Assembly (NCBI GenBank): GCA_001873625.1
Contig: MNZN01000003.1
Coordinates: forward strand, 1-64,000
Source of the DNA: Candidatus Saccharibacteria bacterium CG2_30_41_52
Lineage (GTDB): Bacteria; Patescibacteriota; Saccharimonadia; Saccharimonadales; Saccharimonadaceae
DNA length: 64,000 bases
Direction of reading: 5' to 3'
The notes under the pieces were generated by a model. The model searched no databases and was not told the origin of the DNA. It saw nothing but the letters and a program-made list of their open reading frames with translations. The translations under genes were made by a program, and so were the position numbers. This document shows, piece by piece, positions 32,693-38,359 of this stretch. The number at the start of each line of letters is the position of its first letter. The stretch's first letter is position 1.

Positions 32693-33072
32693 GCGTACGG
32701 ATTAAAAGTCCGAGATTGCGGTTCGCTAAAACGTCTGGGTCCAGCAATTTTACCAGGTTGTTGCAATGCACCTCTTTGACGAATACTTGAACGATTTAAA
32801 TCTTTGTTAATGACTGCTTTGGCTCGTAATTCTCCATATTTTCCACCAATAGTGGACCTTTGATAATTATCAATAATTCGACGATTGCGATCAATTAATT
32901 GGCGTTGCTCAAAGGATATGCTAGTGGTAGATCCAATTTGATCGCCGTGTGCTACAACAGCATAGCCGTGGCTATGGAATGGTTTTCCATCATCATCAGG
33001 TTTTACTATGTGGTTATTCATGTCCATATTTATTTTGCCTTGTTTATTTATATTATACGATAAAGTCAGCAA
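32689..33072 (-). CDS. Hypothetical protein
   Basis: 127-aa ORF between convergent neighbours; no recognised domain. Confidence 0.4.
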   Translation of the reverse strand: MLTLSYNINKQGKINMDMNNHIVKPDDDGKPFHSHGYAVVAHGDQIGSTTSISFEQRQLIDRNRRIIDNYQRSTIGGKYGELRAKAVINKDLNRSSIRQRGALQQPGKIAGPRRFSEPQSRTFNPYA

Positions 33073-33082
33073 AAGAGCTAAC

Positions 33083-33222
33083 GTAAATAACAGAGATCGG
33101 TCACGTTCCGCAACCCCGCAAGTCAGTCAAATAAATATAATTCATTTGTAACATTGCCTTGCGCAGTGTAGACTTGCGCTGCTCATCCGCTACCTCGCAG
33201 GTTCAATCTCATCAAACATCCC
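33083..33222 (-). repeat. tRNA-associated structured element (copy H, downstream of tRNA-His)
   Basis: Antisense-like TGAGATTGAACCTGC; GGTAGCGGA - TGAGCAGCGCAAGTCTACACTGCGCAAGG...CTTGCGGGGTTGCGGAACGTGAC - CGATCTCTGTTATT (degenerate tRNA-His 3' end). Confidence 0.75.
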
Positions 33223-33264
33223 AAATAAATAGACGACCCGTTCACAGGTCGTCTATTTATTTGG
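33221..33264 (-). terminator. Terminator-like palindrome anchored on tRNA-His CCA
   Basis: ccaaataaatagacgacccgttcacaggtcgtctatttatttgg. Confidence 0.85.
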
Positions 33265-33339
33265 GGCGAATGACGGGGATCGAACCCGTTACCTTCGGAG
33301 CCACAACCCGACGCTCTAACCAGGTGAGCTACATTCGCC
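33262..33339 (-). tRNA. tRNA-His (anticodon GTG) with encoded G-1 and C73, CCA encoded
   Basis: GGCGAATGTAGCTCACCTGGTTAGAGCGTCGGGTTGTGGCTCCGAAGGTAACGGGTTCGATCCCCGTCATTCGCCCCA. Confidence 0.95.
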
Positions 33340-33427
33340 ATATCAATGATTGGACTAAGATATTGTAACAGATATAAAGAGATATGAAAATACATTAAGC
33401 TTCGCCTTTGTATGACCTTCTGCATCA

Positions 33428-33459
33428 ACCAGGGTCTGTCCAGGGACGGACCCTGGTTG
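33428..33459. other. Strong palindrome upstream of tRNA-Gly
   Basis: aaccagggtctgtccagggacggaccctggtt. Confidence 0.6.
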
Positions 33460-33502
33460 GTTCTTCCATAGACTTATGGCCTCTGGTATAATATAAAAAC
33501 GC

Positions 33503-33577
33503 GCGGGCGTCGTATAAAGGCTAATATGTCTGCCTTCCAAGCAAACGATGAGAGTTCGATTCTCTCCGCCCGCACCA
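33503..33577 (+). tRNA. tRNA-Gly (anticodon TCC), CCA encoded
   Basis: GCGGGCGTCGTATAAAGGCTAATATGTCTGCCTTCCAAGCAAACGATGAGAGTTCGATTCTCTCCGCCCGCACCA; TATAAT just upstream. Confidence 0.92.
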
Positions 33578-33616
33578 AAACAAAATCCGTATCATTAGAT
33601 ACGGTTTTTATTTTGG
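33575..33616 (+). terminator. Terminator-like palindrome anchored on tRNA-Gly CCA
   Basis: ccaaaacaaaatccgtatcattagatacggtttttattttgg. Confidence 0.85.
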
Positions 33617-33770
33617 TACGCGTCGAAAATCGAACTTTCATCGTAGCGATTCGCTGAACAGCGAAGAACGGATGAGAGTTCGTGAAGCGACGGGCAATAA
33701 AAATCAGCTTGCTTATTTTTGTAACCGAGCGGAAATAAGGAGGATTTATCCGACTGCTTTCTCTCCGCTC
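33614..33770 (+). repeat. tRNA-associated element (copy G, divergent core, downstream of tRNA-Gly)
   Basis: TCGAAAATCGAACTTTCATCGT (antisense tRNA-Gly 3' half) ... CGGATGAGAGTTCG - [75-nt insert] - TTTCTCTCCGC (sense tRNA-Gly 3' half split in T-loop). Confidence 0.75.
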
Positions 33771-33775
33771 TTTCT

Positions 33776-34192
33776 CTATTCTGCAGCTTCGGCTTTTTCT
33801 GACTCTTCCTTGGTCACATGTACCGTTCCGTGTGGGTGCTGTGGTGGTGCATAAATCGAATAAACCTTCAATGGAACATCCCCATTGCTAATCAGATTGT
33901 GCCAAGTGCCGGCCGGCACAACGATTGCATCACCGTCACCAACCTGCCAAACTCGTAATTCATTCTTGCTTGGCCCCATACTAACGGTTGCTTGGCCTTG
34001 TTCAATTCGTAAAAATTGGTCATGTGTTGGATGAGCTTCCAGTCCAATATCGTGTCCTGGTTCAATCGACATCAACGTGATTTGAAGATTACTGCCTGTC
34101 CATAAAGTAGTTCGATAATTCGTATTTTCAATCGTTGCAGCCTCAATTCCAGTAACAAGTGGACTTGGACCGTTATCTATAATTTCTGTCAT
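33776..34192 (-). CDS. Cupin-domain protein
   Basis: LMSIEPGHDIGLEAHPTHDQFLRIEQGQATV...GDAIVVPAGTWHNLISNGDVPLKVYSIYAPPQHPHGTVH. Confidence 0.88.
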   Translation of the reverse strand: MTEIIDNGPSPLVTGIEAATIENTNYRTTLWTGSNLQITLMSIEPGHDIGLEAHPTHDQFLRIEQGQATVSMGPSKNELRVWQVGDGDAIVVPAGTWHNLISNGDVPLKVYSIYAPPQHPHGTVHVTKEESEKAEAAE

Positions 34193-34269
34193 TTTTTAAT
34201 TCCCCCTCACCCTTAATTATACCATTTATCAACATCTTAAAACTTAAATTTGCTATAATAGCCTAGATT

Positions 34270-34286
34270 GGTACGCCCTGGTAGCT
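34270..34286 (+). repeat. Exact 17-nt duplicate of the tRNA-Arg(TCT) 5' region
   Basis: ggtacgccctggtagct here and at 34601..34617. Confidence 0.9.
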
Positions 34287-34352
34287 TCCTGTCATTCGAC
34301 AGGACCATGTCGGATGACATGGCAGTGGAAATCAAGTATAGTTTTCAGTGAG

Positions 34353-34643
34353 ATGTATTACGTATATTTCTTAAGAATGAATAATAGTCAGATATATACT
34401 GGTTCAACCAAAGATCTCAAATCACGAATGAGATTACACGAATGCGGAAACGTAACAACCACCAGTAAATATCTGCCCGTTATACTGATAGGATATGAAT
34501 CATATATTCTAAAATCAGATGCACAGCGCAGAGAAAGATATCTTAAAACTACCGAAGGTAAGCGATTATTTAGGCAACAGTTTAGGGATATCCTGAACAC
34601 GGTACGCCCTGGTAGCTCAGTGGATAGAGCAGAGGACTTCTAA
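34353..34643 (+). CDS. GIY-YIG endonuclease family protein (UPF0213-like) running into tRNA-Arg
   Basis: MYYVYFLRMNNSQIYTGSTKDLKSRMRLHECGNVTTTSKYLPVILIGYESY...RRERYLKTTEGKRLFRQQF; stop codon lies in tRNA-Arg anticodon loop. Confidence 0.85.
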   Translation: MYYVYFLRMNNSQIYTGSTKDLKSRMRLHECGNVTTTSKYLPVILIGYESYILKSDAQRRERYLKTTEGKRLFRQQFRDILNTVRPGSSVDRAEDF

Positions 34644-34681
34644 GCCTAAGGTCGTTGGTTCAATTCCAACCCAGGGTACCA
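34606..34681 (+). tRNA. tRNA-Arg (anticodon TCT), CCA encoded
   Basis: GCCCTGGTAGCTCAGTGGATAGAGCAGAGGACTTCTAAGCCTAAGGTCGTTGGTTCAATTCCAACCCAGGGTACCA; anticodon stem has outer and inner mismatches. Confidence 0.88.
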
Positions 34682-34722
34682 AAATAAAATAACTAACCCG
34701 CAGGGCTAGTTATTTTATTTTG
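34679..34722 (+). terminator. Terminator-like palindrome anchored on tRNA-Arg(TCT) CCA
   Basis: ccaaaataaaataactaacccgcagggctagttattttattttg. Confidence 0.85.
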
Positions 34723-34894
34723 ACACCCAGGGATTGGATCGACCAACGACTTTTTGTGAAACAAAAAATGTCGTTGGTGAGCAGTGCAAGTCTGCACTGC
34801 GCAAGGCCGGAGCCTGGATTGCGAACGCGACCAAGCGAGGCGGGGTAGATGTATTTTCTGGAAGAAAATAACCGTGACCAATTCCAACCCAGTG
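34721..34894 (+). repeat. tRNA-associated structured element (copy R, downstream of tRNA-Arg(TCT))
   Basis: CACCCAGGGATTGGATCGACCAACGAC (antisense) ... GTCGTTGG - TGAGCAGTGCAAGTC...ACCGTGAC - CAATTCCAACCCAG (sense tRNA-Arg 3' end). Confidence 0.9.
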
Positions 34895-34975
34895 CAAACA
34901 ACACTAGACATTCATCTGCTATAATCAGAACCATAATATAAGCATCATAAGATTCTTTAAAAAGGAAAATATACG

Positions 34976-35926
34976 ATGAAAAACGAAGTAGAACCCAAGA
35001 TTAATACTCCAGGAATTATAGTCTTACAATGGCTCACATACGCCTTTTGGGGATTAACCATCTTTGCAGCGTCTCTATTGTCAGCCAGTGTTATTGCCTA
35101 TTTCATGAACCCAACCAATAATAATGATTTTAGCGCCTATGCAACAGCTGCGGTATTAGTTTTATTGCCAATATCAGTAATCTGCGACATCTTTTATTCA
35201 AAACAAGAGCCCGAACACAAAACTGGAGCCGCATCAATTATTATGATTATTTACGCTGTTTTATTTGCATTATTCGGCATCGGCGCATTAATCGCAATCG
35301 TATTTTCATTAGTACAACTAATGATTAGCAGTTCTGACATTACTAACACTCAAATCGCCTTATATAGCGAAATGATAGTTGTAGTTTTGTATGCAGTAAC
35401 GTTTTTGCGTACATTATTGCCAGCAAAACTAGTAAAATTCCGCCGACTCTACATTGTTTTCATGATTATCATCGCCGGTATAATATCGACACTTAGTTTC
35501 ATTGGACCAGTTACAAATGCACAATTGACTCGTGATGACCGACTTATCGACAATAACCTAAACTACATACAATCAGGTATCGATACTTATATTCATACCC
35601 AGAACAAACTACCTGAAAACCTGAGCGTCATTAGCGTGACTGGCGATGCTAAAAAAATCGTTGACAACAAATTAGTAAAATATACTCCGAATAGCAAAAC
35701 TCCTCTTGTTACGCAAGGAACTTTTAATCCCAGTACATCAACTACGACCTATTACTATGAATTATGTGTCAATTACAAATCAGCAGCCAGTGATAGCGAA
35801 TCAACCTATACCCCAGTTCAAACTGACAGCCGTGACGGTTACAACAGCTACATAATAACTTTTAATCACCCAGCTGGTGATTATTGCTACAAAGTTAGTA
35901 CATCCACCGACTTCTTATCTAAGTAA
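34976..35926 (+). CDS. Multi-pass membrane protein, hypothetical
   Basis: Several TM segments; extracytoplasmic DDRLIDNNLNYIQSGIDTYIHTQNKLPENLS. Confidence 0.7.
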   Translation: MKNEVEPKINTPGIIVLQWLTYAFWGLTIFAASLLSASVIAYFMNPTNNNDFSAYATAAVLVLLPISVICDIFYSKQEPEHKTGAASIIMIIYAVLFALFGIGALIAIVFSLVQLMISSSDITNTQIALYSEMIVVVLYAVTFLRTLLPAKLVKFRRLYIVFMIIIAGIISTLSFIGPVTNAQLTRDDRLIDNNLNYIQSGIDTYIHTQNKLPENLSVISVTGDAKKIVDNKLVKYTPNSKTPLVTQGTFNPSTSTTTYYYELCVNYKSAASDSESTYTPVQTDSRDGYNSYIITFNHPAGDYCYKVSTSTDFLSK

Positions 35927-35929
35927 TTT

Positions 35930-38359
35930 TTAACCTTCAATGATTCTTTGAGCGTCGGCTTGCGTTTCAAGTATTTGCTTGACTTGGTCTAAACTAATTT
36001 CAATAACATTTCCTGCTTCAACGTTACCTGACAACATCTGTTTAGCAACTGTGTTTTCAACTGCTCGCTGAACAACTCGTCGCATCGGTCGAGCGCCCAA
36101 CCTAGGGTCATATCCGGCCTCAACCAAGTATTTTTTTGCATTATCGGCAACATTAACAGTCACCTTTTGTAGCGCCAGCGTTTTATTCACCCCATCTAAT
36201 ATCAAATCAACAACCTGCAACAGCTCGGCTTTATCGAGAGGTCTAAACATAACGATTTCGTCAAAGCGATTCAAAAATTCTGGTCGGAATTGATTACTGC
36301 TAATTAACTCGTTTACAAATTGCTCTTCAAAACGTTCAATATTATGACCTCGATCAATATATTCCCTTATTCTATCGGCACCGGCATTACTGGTGGCAAT
36401 AATAATTGCATCCCTAAAACTTACCTCTCGATTTTTAACATCGCGCAAGATACCTTCATCTAACAACTGCAGTAATGTTGACAATACATTAGGATGAGCT
36501 TTCTCAATCTCGTCTAGTAGTATTACACTAAACGGCTGTTTCATAGTTCTGGCGGTCAAGCTATTGGCGTTATCAACACCATCAGCAATCAAACGCGCCA
36601 CATCGTCGCTACTAGTATATTCATTCATGTCTAATCGAATCATACGATTTTCACCACCAAAATATACTTCGGCCAGCGCTTTGGCAAGTTCGGTTTTGCC
36701 TACGCCCGTTGGGCCCAAAAACAAGAACGTACCAATTGGACGATTCTGATTACAAACACCAGCCCTAGCCCTTCTGAGGGCATCACTAACAACACTTACA
36801 GCTCGAACCTGGTTGACCATTCGTTTGTGAATCAATTCTTCTAAATGAAGTAATTTATCGCGTTCTTCATCGCCAGACGCAATACTAATTTTTATATCCA
36901 TAGTTTTTTCAATAGCTTGCTGAACAGATCTGGCTGTTACTAGTCCATTTTCATGGTAGTGTGCGGCTGATTCCAACAACTGCAAAGCTTTTCCCGGCAT
37001 AGCTAAATCGTAAACATATCTGTCACCCAATCGATATGTTTCGACCAATGCCTGATACATATACGTCACATGATTTTGAAATTCCAACATAATTGATAAA
37101 TCCTGCATGACATCAATCGTTTCGTCACGAGATGCTGGGGCAACTGTAATTCTGTTCAGACTATTTATAAGTTTTGGATCGCGTTTATTAATCTGCAAAT
37201 ATCGTTGTTCATCCATAGTCAATATAATGCGCAAATGTCCAGCTTCGATGACTGGCATCAGCACATTAGTTACATCAACCGACCCAACACTATCCTCAAA
37301 AAACAACTGTGCATTATCTAAACAGATAATAATATTTTTTGCATTATAAGCCTCGTTCAATATGCTTGGGATAAGTTTTTCTAATTCTCCTCTGCCTGGT
37401 GCCGCAGCAATCAATGACGATGCATCCAAAATAAATACCTGTCTAAATTTAAGGCTTTCGGGGATGTTTTCAGATCCGTCTAGTAATTTTGATGCTAAAG
37501 CATGGACAATCTGAGTCTTGCCGACGCCATCTGGACCAACCAAGACCGCATTCTGACGCCCATCATTACCAAATATATCGACTAACTGACGCAATGAGTT
37601 ATCGTGAGCCACCAACTTATGCGACTGAGTATCATACAATCTCACCTGCCGGCTAATATTCTGACCAAAACGATTCAAAAGTGGAGTCCATCCAAACGAC
37701 CAATCACGAGCAAACCCACCAGTAAAACGTATCGTTTTAGATTTATCGATTAATTCACGCAAGTGATTATACCAATGAATTCCTTGTATCAAATCGTCTA
37801 CGCCCAATTGCAAATGGCTAAGAAGCGTTTGTGTATTTGGCGAACATCTGACAAGAGACACCAACAAAACTGCTGCTGACATATTCTTACTCTTTGTCTG
37901 TTCACGTAAAGCCCATGCATCTTGCCAAACAGCTTGCATATCACCTTTGTTATCTGAGGTTAATTCTTGCAAAAACTTTGAACTAATCCCAAATCTAGCC
38001 GCAAAAAATTGACCACCGGCTACTTGACCGATAATCGTCGCTACATCACGAGGTGATGATTCTTTGTGTAGTCGTCCCAATATGTCAGCCGACAGTGCAT
38101 CATCGATTGTTTTTGGATTCTTAGCAATGGCCATGTGATGTAATTCACCGTTGTACCATTCGGCCGCCATAGCTGGAATCGCCGAAAAACCAATCAAAAC
38201 CCAACCAATTTCGGACTCAACAAACACCAATCCGATACCTGTTATCGCCATTAGTATCGTCGAGATTGACAAAACAATAACCGAAGAAGGTCTAAATCTA
38301 ACACTAATTCGCGCTTTTTCGCTGCGATAACTTCGGTAATTGAATTTCAAATCATTCAT
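35930..38359 (-). CDS. Membrane-anchored double-AAA+ Clp-like ATPase
   Basis: N-terminal hydrophobic segments; AAA1 LVGPDGVGKTQIV; AAA2 FLFLGPTGVGKTELAKALAEVYFG, VILLDEIEKAHPNVLSTLLQLLDEGILRD. Confidence 0.88.
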   Translation of the reverse strand: MNDLKFNYRSYRSEKARISVRFRPSSVIVLSISTILMAITGIGLVFVESEIGWVLIGFSAIPAMAAEWYNGELHHMAIAKNPKTIDDALSADILGRLHKESSPRDVATIIGQVAGGQFFAARFGISSKFLQELTSDNKGDMQAVWQDAWALREQTKSKNMSAAVLLVSLVRCSPNTQTLLSHLQLGVDDLIQGIHWYNHLRELIDKSKTIRFTGGFARDWSFGWTPLLNRFGQNISRQVRLYDTQSHKLVAHDNSLRQLVDIFGNDGRQNAVLVGPDGVGKTQIVHALASKLLDGSENIPESLKFRQVFILDASSLIAAAPGRGELEKLIPSILNEAYNAKNIIICLDNAQLFFEDSVGSVDVTNVLMPVIEAGHLRIILTMDEQRYLQINKRDPKLINSLNRITVAPASRDETIDVMQDLSIMLEFQNHVTYMYQALVETYRLGDRYVYDLAMPGKALQLLESAAHYHENGLVTARSVQQAIEKTMDIKISIASGDEERDKLLHLEELIHKRMVNQVRAVSVVSDALRRARAGVCNQNRPIGTFLFLGPTGVGKTELAKALAEVYFGGENRMIRLDMNEYTSSDDVARLIADGVDNANSLTARTMKQPFSVILLDEIEKAHPNVLSTLLQLLDEGILRDVKNREVSFRDAIIIATSNAGADRIREYIDRGHNIERFEEQFVNELISSNQFRPEFLNRFDEIVMFRPLDKAELLQVVDLILDGVNKTLALQKVTVNVADNAKKYLVEAGYDPRLGARPMRRVVQRAVENTVAKQMLSGNVEAGNVIEISLDQVKQILETQADAQRIIEG

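Follow-up and report, generated by a model that had tools for sequence, protein, structure and literature searches.

The window analysed here is a 64,000-nucleotide stretch of contig C7 from the 825-kb genome of Candidatus Saccharibacteria bacterium CG2_30_41_52 (labelled G000 in genome comparisons), in which a small GIY-YIG nuclease gene lies between the promoter of a tRNA-Arg(TCT) gene and the tRNA itself. The features of this locus are located on the forward strand unless stated otherwise. The original tRNA-Arg promoter, recognizable by a TATAAT -10-like box (34254–34259), now precedes a broken copy of the tRNA, and in relatives with an empty site it adjoins the tRNA. The broken copy begins with a GGTAC leader and tRNA nt 1–12 (34270–34286), and this 17-nt sequence (GGTACGCCCTGGTAGCT) recurs exactly at 34601–34617, 331 bp away, as had been claimed in an earlier note on this DNA; the chance expectation for such a repeat is ~1e-5 (arithmetic estimate, comparing 400 nt with 400 nt). 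Within its D-arm, the partial copy carries hairpin 1 (TCCTGTC-ATTC-GACAGGA, 34287–34304) and its inverted partner, hairpin 2 (CCATGTC-GGAT-GACATGG, 34305–34322), which correspond to the double-hairpin segment described in the same note and form the sole tandem ATNC/GNAT pair within the window. Past the hairpins, the copy continues in register with CAGTGGA, tRNA nt 13–19 (34323–34329, compared with 34618–34624 of the intact tRNA), and the hairpin pair therefore interrupts the D-arm of a longer 5' copy.

The nuclease ORF (34353–34643) encodes a single-domain protein of 96 aa, beginning at ATG 34353 with MYYVYFLRMNNSQIYTGSTKDLKSRM... and matching Pfam PF01541 (E 1.3e-13). It runs into tRNA-Arg(TCT), as the earlier note had claimed, so that the C-terminal residues of the protein are encoded by tRNA sequence and the TAA stop codon (34641–34643) overlaps the anticodon loop. 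The right border of the insertion is marked by the second copy of the GGTAC leader (34601–34605, by sequence repeat), which is followed by the intact tRNA-Arg(TCT) (34606–34681), the 38-nt 5' part of which is single-copy in the genome. Beyond the tRNA, inspection reveals a terminator-like inverted repeat (34682–34722) and, on the reverse strand, an antisense copy of the tRNA T-arm and 3' end (34724–34750). These are followed by a 3' partial tRNA copy (GTCGTTGGT ... CAATTCCAACCCAG, 34770–34892) whose T-loop is interrupted by a structured insert of ~100 nt; its last 14 nt (34879–34892) match tRNA nt 57–70 exactly.

The ~100-nt insert is organized as GTGAG-hairpin-CGCAAGGCCGGA...GAGGCGGGGT-hairpin-CGTGAC, and its window copy, which is contained within 34770–34892, has no Rfam match. 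In 3' partial copies it occupies the T-loop and in 5' ones (Gln, Gln, Glu, Ile) the D-arm region; it flanks many tRNAs of the window genome, either downstream or upstream (L160–L189). A tie between this element and the nuclease was considered and rejected, as the two do not co-occur and the element is found without GIY-YIG genes.

Two familiar types of insertion were considered for the window locus and rejected. For a tRNA-integrating island mobilized by a tyrosine recombinase, the repeat is present, but the 331-bp insert contains no integrase-like ORF, and no recombinase gene is present at the locus. A self-splicing or group I intron with an encoded nuclease is contradicted by the lack of an Rfam intron family in 33000–36000 and by the tRNA being intact and separate.

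With respect to the protein, a significant profile match is accompanied by retention of the catalytic Y, G, R and H in most or all rows of the GIY-YIG alignment (29 rows; G17, R25 and H29 invariant, Y5 and Y15 in at least 90 %), which places it in the GIY-YIG superfamily. The AlphaFold model (mean pLDDT 91) adopts the GIY-YIG fold. UPF0213 proteins and Slx1 are the closest solved structures by sequence and also the top fold matches, none of which reached E 0.001. The UPF0213/YhbQ proteins (PDB 1ZG2, 1YWL), the best solved relatives, likewise consist of a single GIY-YIG domain, whereas tRNA-inserted elements are not part of their description in the sources cited. A search of NCBIfam returned no match. 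A phage origin of the window nuclease was rejected, since there was no PHROG match and only two weak phage matches were obtained (36–38 % identity). As a separate observation, several UPF0213/YhbQ-like genes (L117, L119, L120, L141, L147) are flanked by ~30-bp inverted repeats of a GTCATCC... palindrome type, and may represent a further association between GIY-YIG genes and palindromes.

The common element DNA ends near TTTAGGGATATTYTGAA without a stop of its own, which is supplied by the leader or the tRNA; 25 of 78 tRNA-linked loci have a stop that overlaps the tRNA or directly adjoins it, and in 13 of these 25 it lies at tRNA nt 8–10. The anticodon-loop stop was discarded as a conserved device, being confined to the closest copies, and the stop position varies between loci.

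The block comprising tRNA-His, tRNA-Gly, a cupin gene and tRNA-Arg(TCT) is conserved in the genus. The scenario that would have spoken against insertion, namely that all relatives carry the gene at this locus with no duplication, was not encountered. In five congeners (G008, G026, G012, G025 and G013) the site is empty, with the -10-like box followed directly by the tRNA, and in seven others (G009, G024, G002, G021, G027, G016 and G022) it holds a short ORF-less element; the nuclease is found at the orthologous locus only in G000 and G007, while G020 carries a truncated nuclease at a tRNA-Arg(TCT) situated at the end of a contig. Nucleases 86 % (G008) and 78 % (G002) identical to that of the window are located 5' of tRNA-Lys(CTT). 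G000 and G007 have a tRNA-Lys promoter matching the one in G008, but in these two genomes the tRNA follows without insertion. Occupancy at Arg and Lys is consequently opposite in G000 and G008, the filled and empty sites being swapped between them. At the G008 tRNA-Lys locus the hairpins are present, with no clear tRNA duplication. The target thus exists as both empty and occupied alleles, as for SegB-like homing endonucleases, and insertion with regeneration of the target, as originally suggested for this locus, is well supported by the empty and filled sites and by the near-identical nuclease at tRNA-Lys where tRNA-Arg is empty.

The short ORF-less 5' elements, observed at tRNA-Arg (L193, L194, L196, L198, L202, L203, L205) and tRNA-Lys (L214, L216, L218, L222, L224), begin with a sense 5' tRNA copy, which a spacer separates from an antisense copy of the D-arm (GCTCTATCCACTGAG or GCTCTAACC). 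They stand between promoter and tRNA and are kept in diverged genomes.

The arrangement extends far beyond the genus. A profile search was run on 392 genomes from the class and on 379 sampled from the phylum, nearly all of them assemblies from metagenomes; flanks were inspected and 224 ORFs were scored. Small GIY-YIG genes were matched in 256 of the 379 sampled phylum genomes. A same-strand tRNA starts at most 170 nt downstream of 78 of the 224 ORFs, a fraction that is biased upward because the HMM was seeded with tRNA-linked proteins, and an opposite-strand tRNA in a single case; upstream tRNAs are on the same strand in 34 cases and on the opposite strand in none. The strand bias and the duplications are unaffected by the seeding. 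The latter were assessed at the 75 loci with both flanks, a copy being defined as at least 10 nt of the own tRNA's 5' half upstream of the ORF. Such 5' copies are present at 50 of the 75 loci (0.55 expected from shuffles), 3' copies downstream of the tRNA at 18 (0.05 expected) and both at 12, and 19 loci have no recognizable partial copy. The 5' copies begin mostly at tRNA nt -4 to +1, and the longest broken copies (L252, L261, L266, L275, L308) run as far as the T-loop GGTTCG, beyond which lie hairpins and, after these, GATTCC or its equivalent. The targets span seventeen amino-acid isotypes, and the isotype clusters on the nuclease tree yet often switches (38 changes versus 55 in shuffled data, shuffled minimum 51).

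Two variant layouts were also observed. In a mirror class (L300, L110, L253, L290, L095, L051), the GIY-YIG ORF lies just 3' of an intact tRNA and is followed, in several cases, by a 3' partial copy of that tRNA. At L040 (tRNA-Lys TTT, G107), an intact tRNA-Lys seems to have been inserted within an older, hairpin-filled copy of itself, with inverted-repeat borders and the GIY-YIG stop codon in the older copy.

Related ORFs were additionally noted at other structured RNA genes. Small GIY-YIG ORFs are found at the RNase P RNA gene, or within it (L016, L049, L066, L081, L143), that of L016 within a long stem (GCCCCGTACCTTTATTCGCT...AGCGAATAAAGGTGCGGGG) near the RNase P RNA 5' end. A nearly identical stem (GCCCCGCACCTTTTATTCTT...AAGAATAAAAGATGCGGGG) is present at L024 (1459–1780), where the ORF lies in a T-box-like leader of an isoleucyl-tRNA synthetase-like gene, the leader being assigned by eye with no Rfam match at gathering score. 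Other ORFs in Saccharimonadia-class genomes lie inside or next to 16S (L089) or 23S (L101, L114, L091) rRNA genes; inverted repeats flank several of them, and a group I intron match is located near L091. A further GIY-YIG clade, found away from tRNAs (L012, L013, L023, L061, L074, L079, L080, L098, L112), is closely bordered by the terminal inverted repeat TCCCGTTAGAnCC...GGnTCTAACGGGA, and one of its members, L023, belongs to the window genome.

Hairpins with stems of at least 6 are present in the 150 nt preceding the ORF at 58 of 75 tRNA-linked loci, compared with 9.2 in shuffles and 17 in a control region further upstream. Those of the window clade are arranged as inverted pairs, TC-ATNC-GA/TC-GNAT-GA, with the loops ATNC and GNAT. 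The hairpin type, although defined partly after inspection of the data, changes only 8 times on a tree of 91 nucleases, versus a shuffled minimum of 22, and the ATNC/GNAT type is confined to one nuclease clade whose targets include Arg, Lys, Ser, Tyr and Gly in several classes of the phylum. The same pairs accompany six close homologues fetched after the types had been defined (L344–L348 and L374; hairpins of L346 and L348 by sequence inspection), which adjoin other tRNAs and include Kuenenbacteria and Liptonbacteria MAGs. At L345 and L347 the broken copy carries hairpins in its D-, anticodon- and T-loops.

A pattern scan detected ATNC/GNAT pairs in 6 of 28 genus members, which are exactly those with a tRNA-linked GIY-YIG gene, and in 8 of 392 class members, all of which are among the 61 with A1-family nucleases (P ~2e-7). 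When only ORF-less pairs and the matching clade are considered within the genus, the association is 4 of 5 versus 1 of 23 (P ~1e-3, uncorrected for kinship). ORF-less pairs reside in 5' copies of tRNA-Arg(TCG) in G008, where the pair is identical to that at the Lys locus of this genome, tRNA-Ala(CGC) in G002, tRNA-Gln(CTG) in G020, tRNA-Ile in G004 and G324, tRNA-Lys(TTT) in G356 and tRNA-Gly in G169 (two pairs). Outside 5' copies, G020 has an ORF-less pair within a 3' pseudo-copy of tRNA-Arg(TCG), and G000 has one within the tRNA-Arg(GCG) leader. The idea that each genome strictly matches one hairpin type to one nuclease clade was rejected, as G004, G169, G324 and G356 do not fit it fully; no clade-matching nuclease was detected in these four pair-bearing genomes, and the hairpin–nuclease link is therefore strong, not exclusive. 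The earlier note had proposed the nuclease as a mobilizing activity for other tRNA elements, and this suggestion is supported for the hairpin-pair elements only. It gains no support for the ~100-nt T-loop and the sense/antisense 5' elements, because these are found where tRNA-linked GIY-YIG genes were not detected.

The locus and its relatives probably represent a mobile element of tRNA genes, in which a GIY-YIG gene sits between the promoter and the intact tRNA, behind a broken 5' copy with palindromic hairpins, often a tandem inverted pair, in its loops, and whose nuclease would open tRNA genes that repair then re-creates. The element moves between tRNA genes; it is inserted between promoter and tRNA, with the 5' part duplicated and the intact tRNA downstream, and its hairpins lie in tRNA loops and are of a type that follows the nuclease clade. 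Cleavage of tRNA genes by the nuclease and mobilization of the hairpins are presumed steps.

The strongest competing explanation, although unlikely, is a plain freestanding homing endonuclease that cuts tRNA-gene DNA, the hairpins being unrelated palindromic repeats or RNA structures controlling translation. Phage SegB provides a precedent (PMC13096335), hairpins upstream of the T4 seg genes regulate translation (PMC2988022), and both the occupancy polymorphism at tRNA-Arg and the isotype clustering speak for it. Nevertheless, hairpin pairs without an ORF exist in partial copies at other tRNAs, hairpin type tracks the nuclease clade and not the tRNA, and at L345 and L347 the hairpins occupy several loops of one copy, distant from ribosome-binding sites. 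It is considerably less plausible that the hairpin-filled copy is a functional leader RNA, a tRNA mimic regulating the tRNA or the nuclease, with the gene as an immobile resident regulator or processing factor. Conservation of the antisense D-arm copy (GCTCTATCCACTGAG) in ORF-less 5' elements of seven diverged congeners would suit such a role, but the leader element is absent from the orthologous locus in five congeners, a single nuclease clade occurs at unrelated tRNAs across phylum classes, and the leaders share nothing more than the hairpins and a copy of whichever tRNA follows. The coincidental placement of an ordinary GIY-YIG gene beside a partial duplication, tRNA genes being recombination hot spots and common integration sites, is highly improbable given the 78:1 strand bias, the own-tRNA copies at 50 of 75 loci and a window locus without a recombinase gene.

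If the element is indeed mobile in the manner preferred here, the nuclease may nick or cut tRNA genes in D-arm or T-loop hairpins, and hairpin DNA, with or without the gene, could become attached at the opened site. Through repair, or a template switch, that returns to the tRNA leader, a complete tRNA would then be re-created downstream, and selection would retain only cells with an intact tRNA. The tRNA promoter presumably drives gene and tRNA as one transcript, from which RNase P would restore the tRNA 5' end; splicing would therefore be unnecessary. Where the stop codon is internal to the tRNA (up to 25 of 78 loci), RNase P processing would leave a stop-less nuclease mRNA, which could limit nuclease expression.

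The closest known logics are those of SegB and REPIN/RAYT; the element belongs to neither and works like a mixture of the two. SegB, which has been studied experimentally, is larger than the nucleases of the element. The SegB enzymes of T-even phages are likewise GIY-YIG nucleases adjoining tRNA genes of many isotypes, which cut inside tRNA genes at a T-loop-like motif, RAWTSGAAC, and promote recombination-driven amplification of tRNA segments (PMC13096335, PMC2988022). This motif is complementary to GTTCSAWTY of the T-loop, the motif at which the longest broken copies terminate. However, SegB is a phage protein of phage tRNA arrays, and the element described here, which is known from sequence, resides in cellular chromosomes, encodes a single domain of 80–96 aa, is placed exactly between promoter and tRNA and includes a hairpin-filled partial copy. 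The separate DNA-binding domain that accompanies GIY-YIG in SegB-like enzymes has no counterpart in the one-domain, 96-aa window ORF.

RAYT proteins are Y1 HUH transposases, and REPs carry GTAG or CGTC tags. Features of this system are also described in PMC3733652. REPIN/RAYT systems (PMC3116915, PMC3733652) likewise comprise inverted pairs of short palindromes, with and without an enzyme gene, whose type tracks the enzyme lineage, as in the tRNA element. In the latter, by contrast, the GIY-YIG gene is the sole enzyme gene, a Y1 HUH transposase is lacking, and the insertion sites, which are tRNA loops and leaders, share no GTAG/CGTC-like tag. Inverted pairs dispersed in the genome, with copies lacking the enzyme gene, are typical of REPIN/RAYT; in the tRNA element, ORF-less pairs are present, at only 1–2 per genome and all near tRNAs.

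CPR rRNA genes have been reported to carry insertions, among them GIY-YIG insertions that do not resemble group I/II introns and were left largely unexplained (PMC11270868). Such insertions share with the tRNA elements the phylum, structured-RNA gene targets and GIY-YIG genes outside introns, whereas the 5' duplication and regenerated intact gene distinguish the tRNA class; that study covers rRNA only, and tRNA is unmentioned in its text. Among open-licence papers, no report was found of GIY-YIG tRNA insertion in CPR/Patescibacteria, or of a link between GIY-YIG and REP palindromes.

A more ambitious reading, which is possible but at present doubtful, is that of a minimal transposition system of a new class, in which single-domain GIY-YIG nucleases would recognize a clade-specific hairpin pair and insert it in cis or trans into tRNA loops, with sister families acting on rRNA, RNase P RNA and T-box-like hairpins. 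Survival of the host would be ensured because each insertion brings a regenerated working tRNA, its own promoter and RNase P replacing splicing.

Small GIY-YIG genes are common but unexplained in Patescibacteria. The proposed element offers a testable answer to the question of how a single-copy tRNA gene can house a mobile gene without an intron. Such elements may mislead tRNA and gene annotation, because their ORFs end inside tRNAs, and they suggest where the otherwise puzzling palindromes and broken tRNA copies near Patescibacteria tRNA genes may have come from. Within a bacterial radiation that ranks among the largest, these observations point to a widespread, apparently undescribed kind of parasite whose targets are essential RNA genes.
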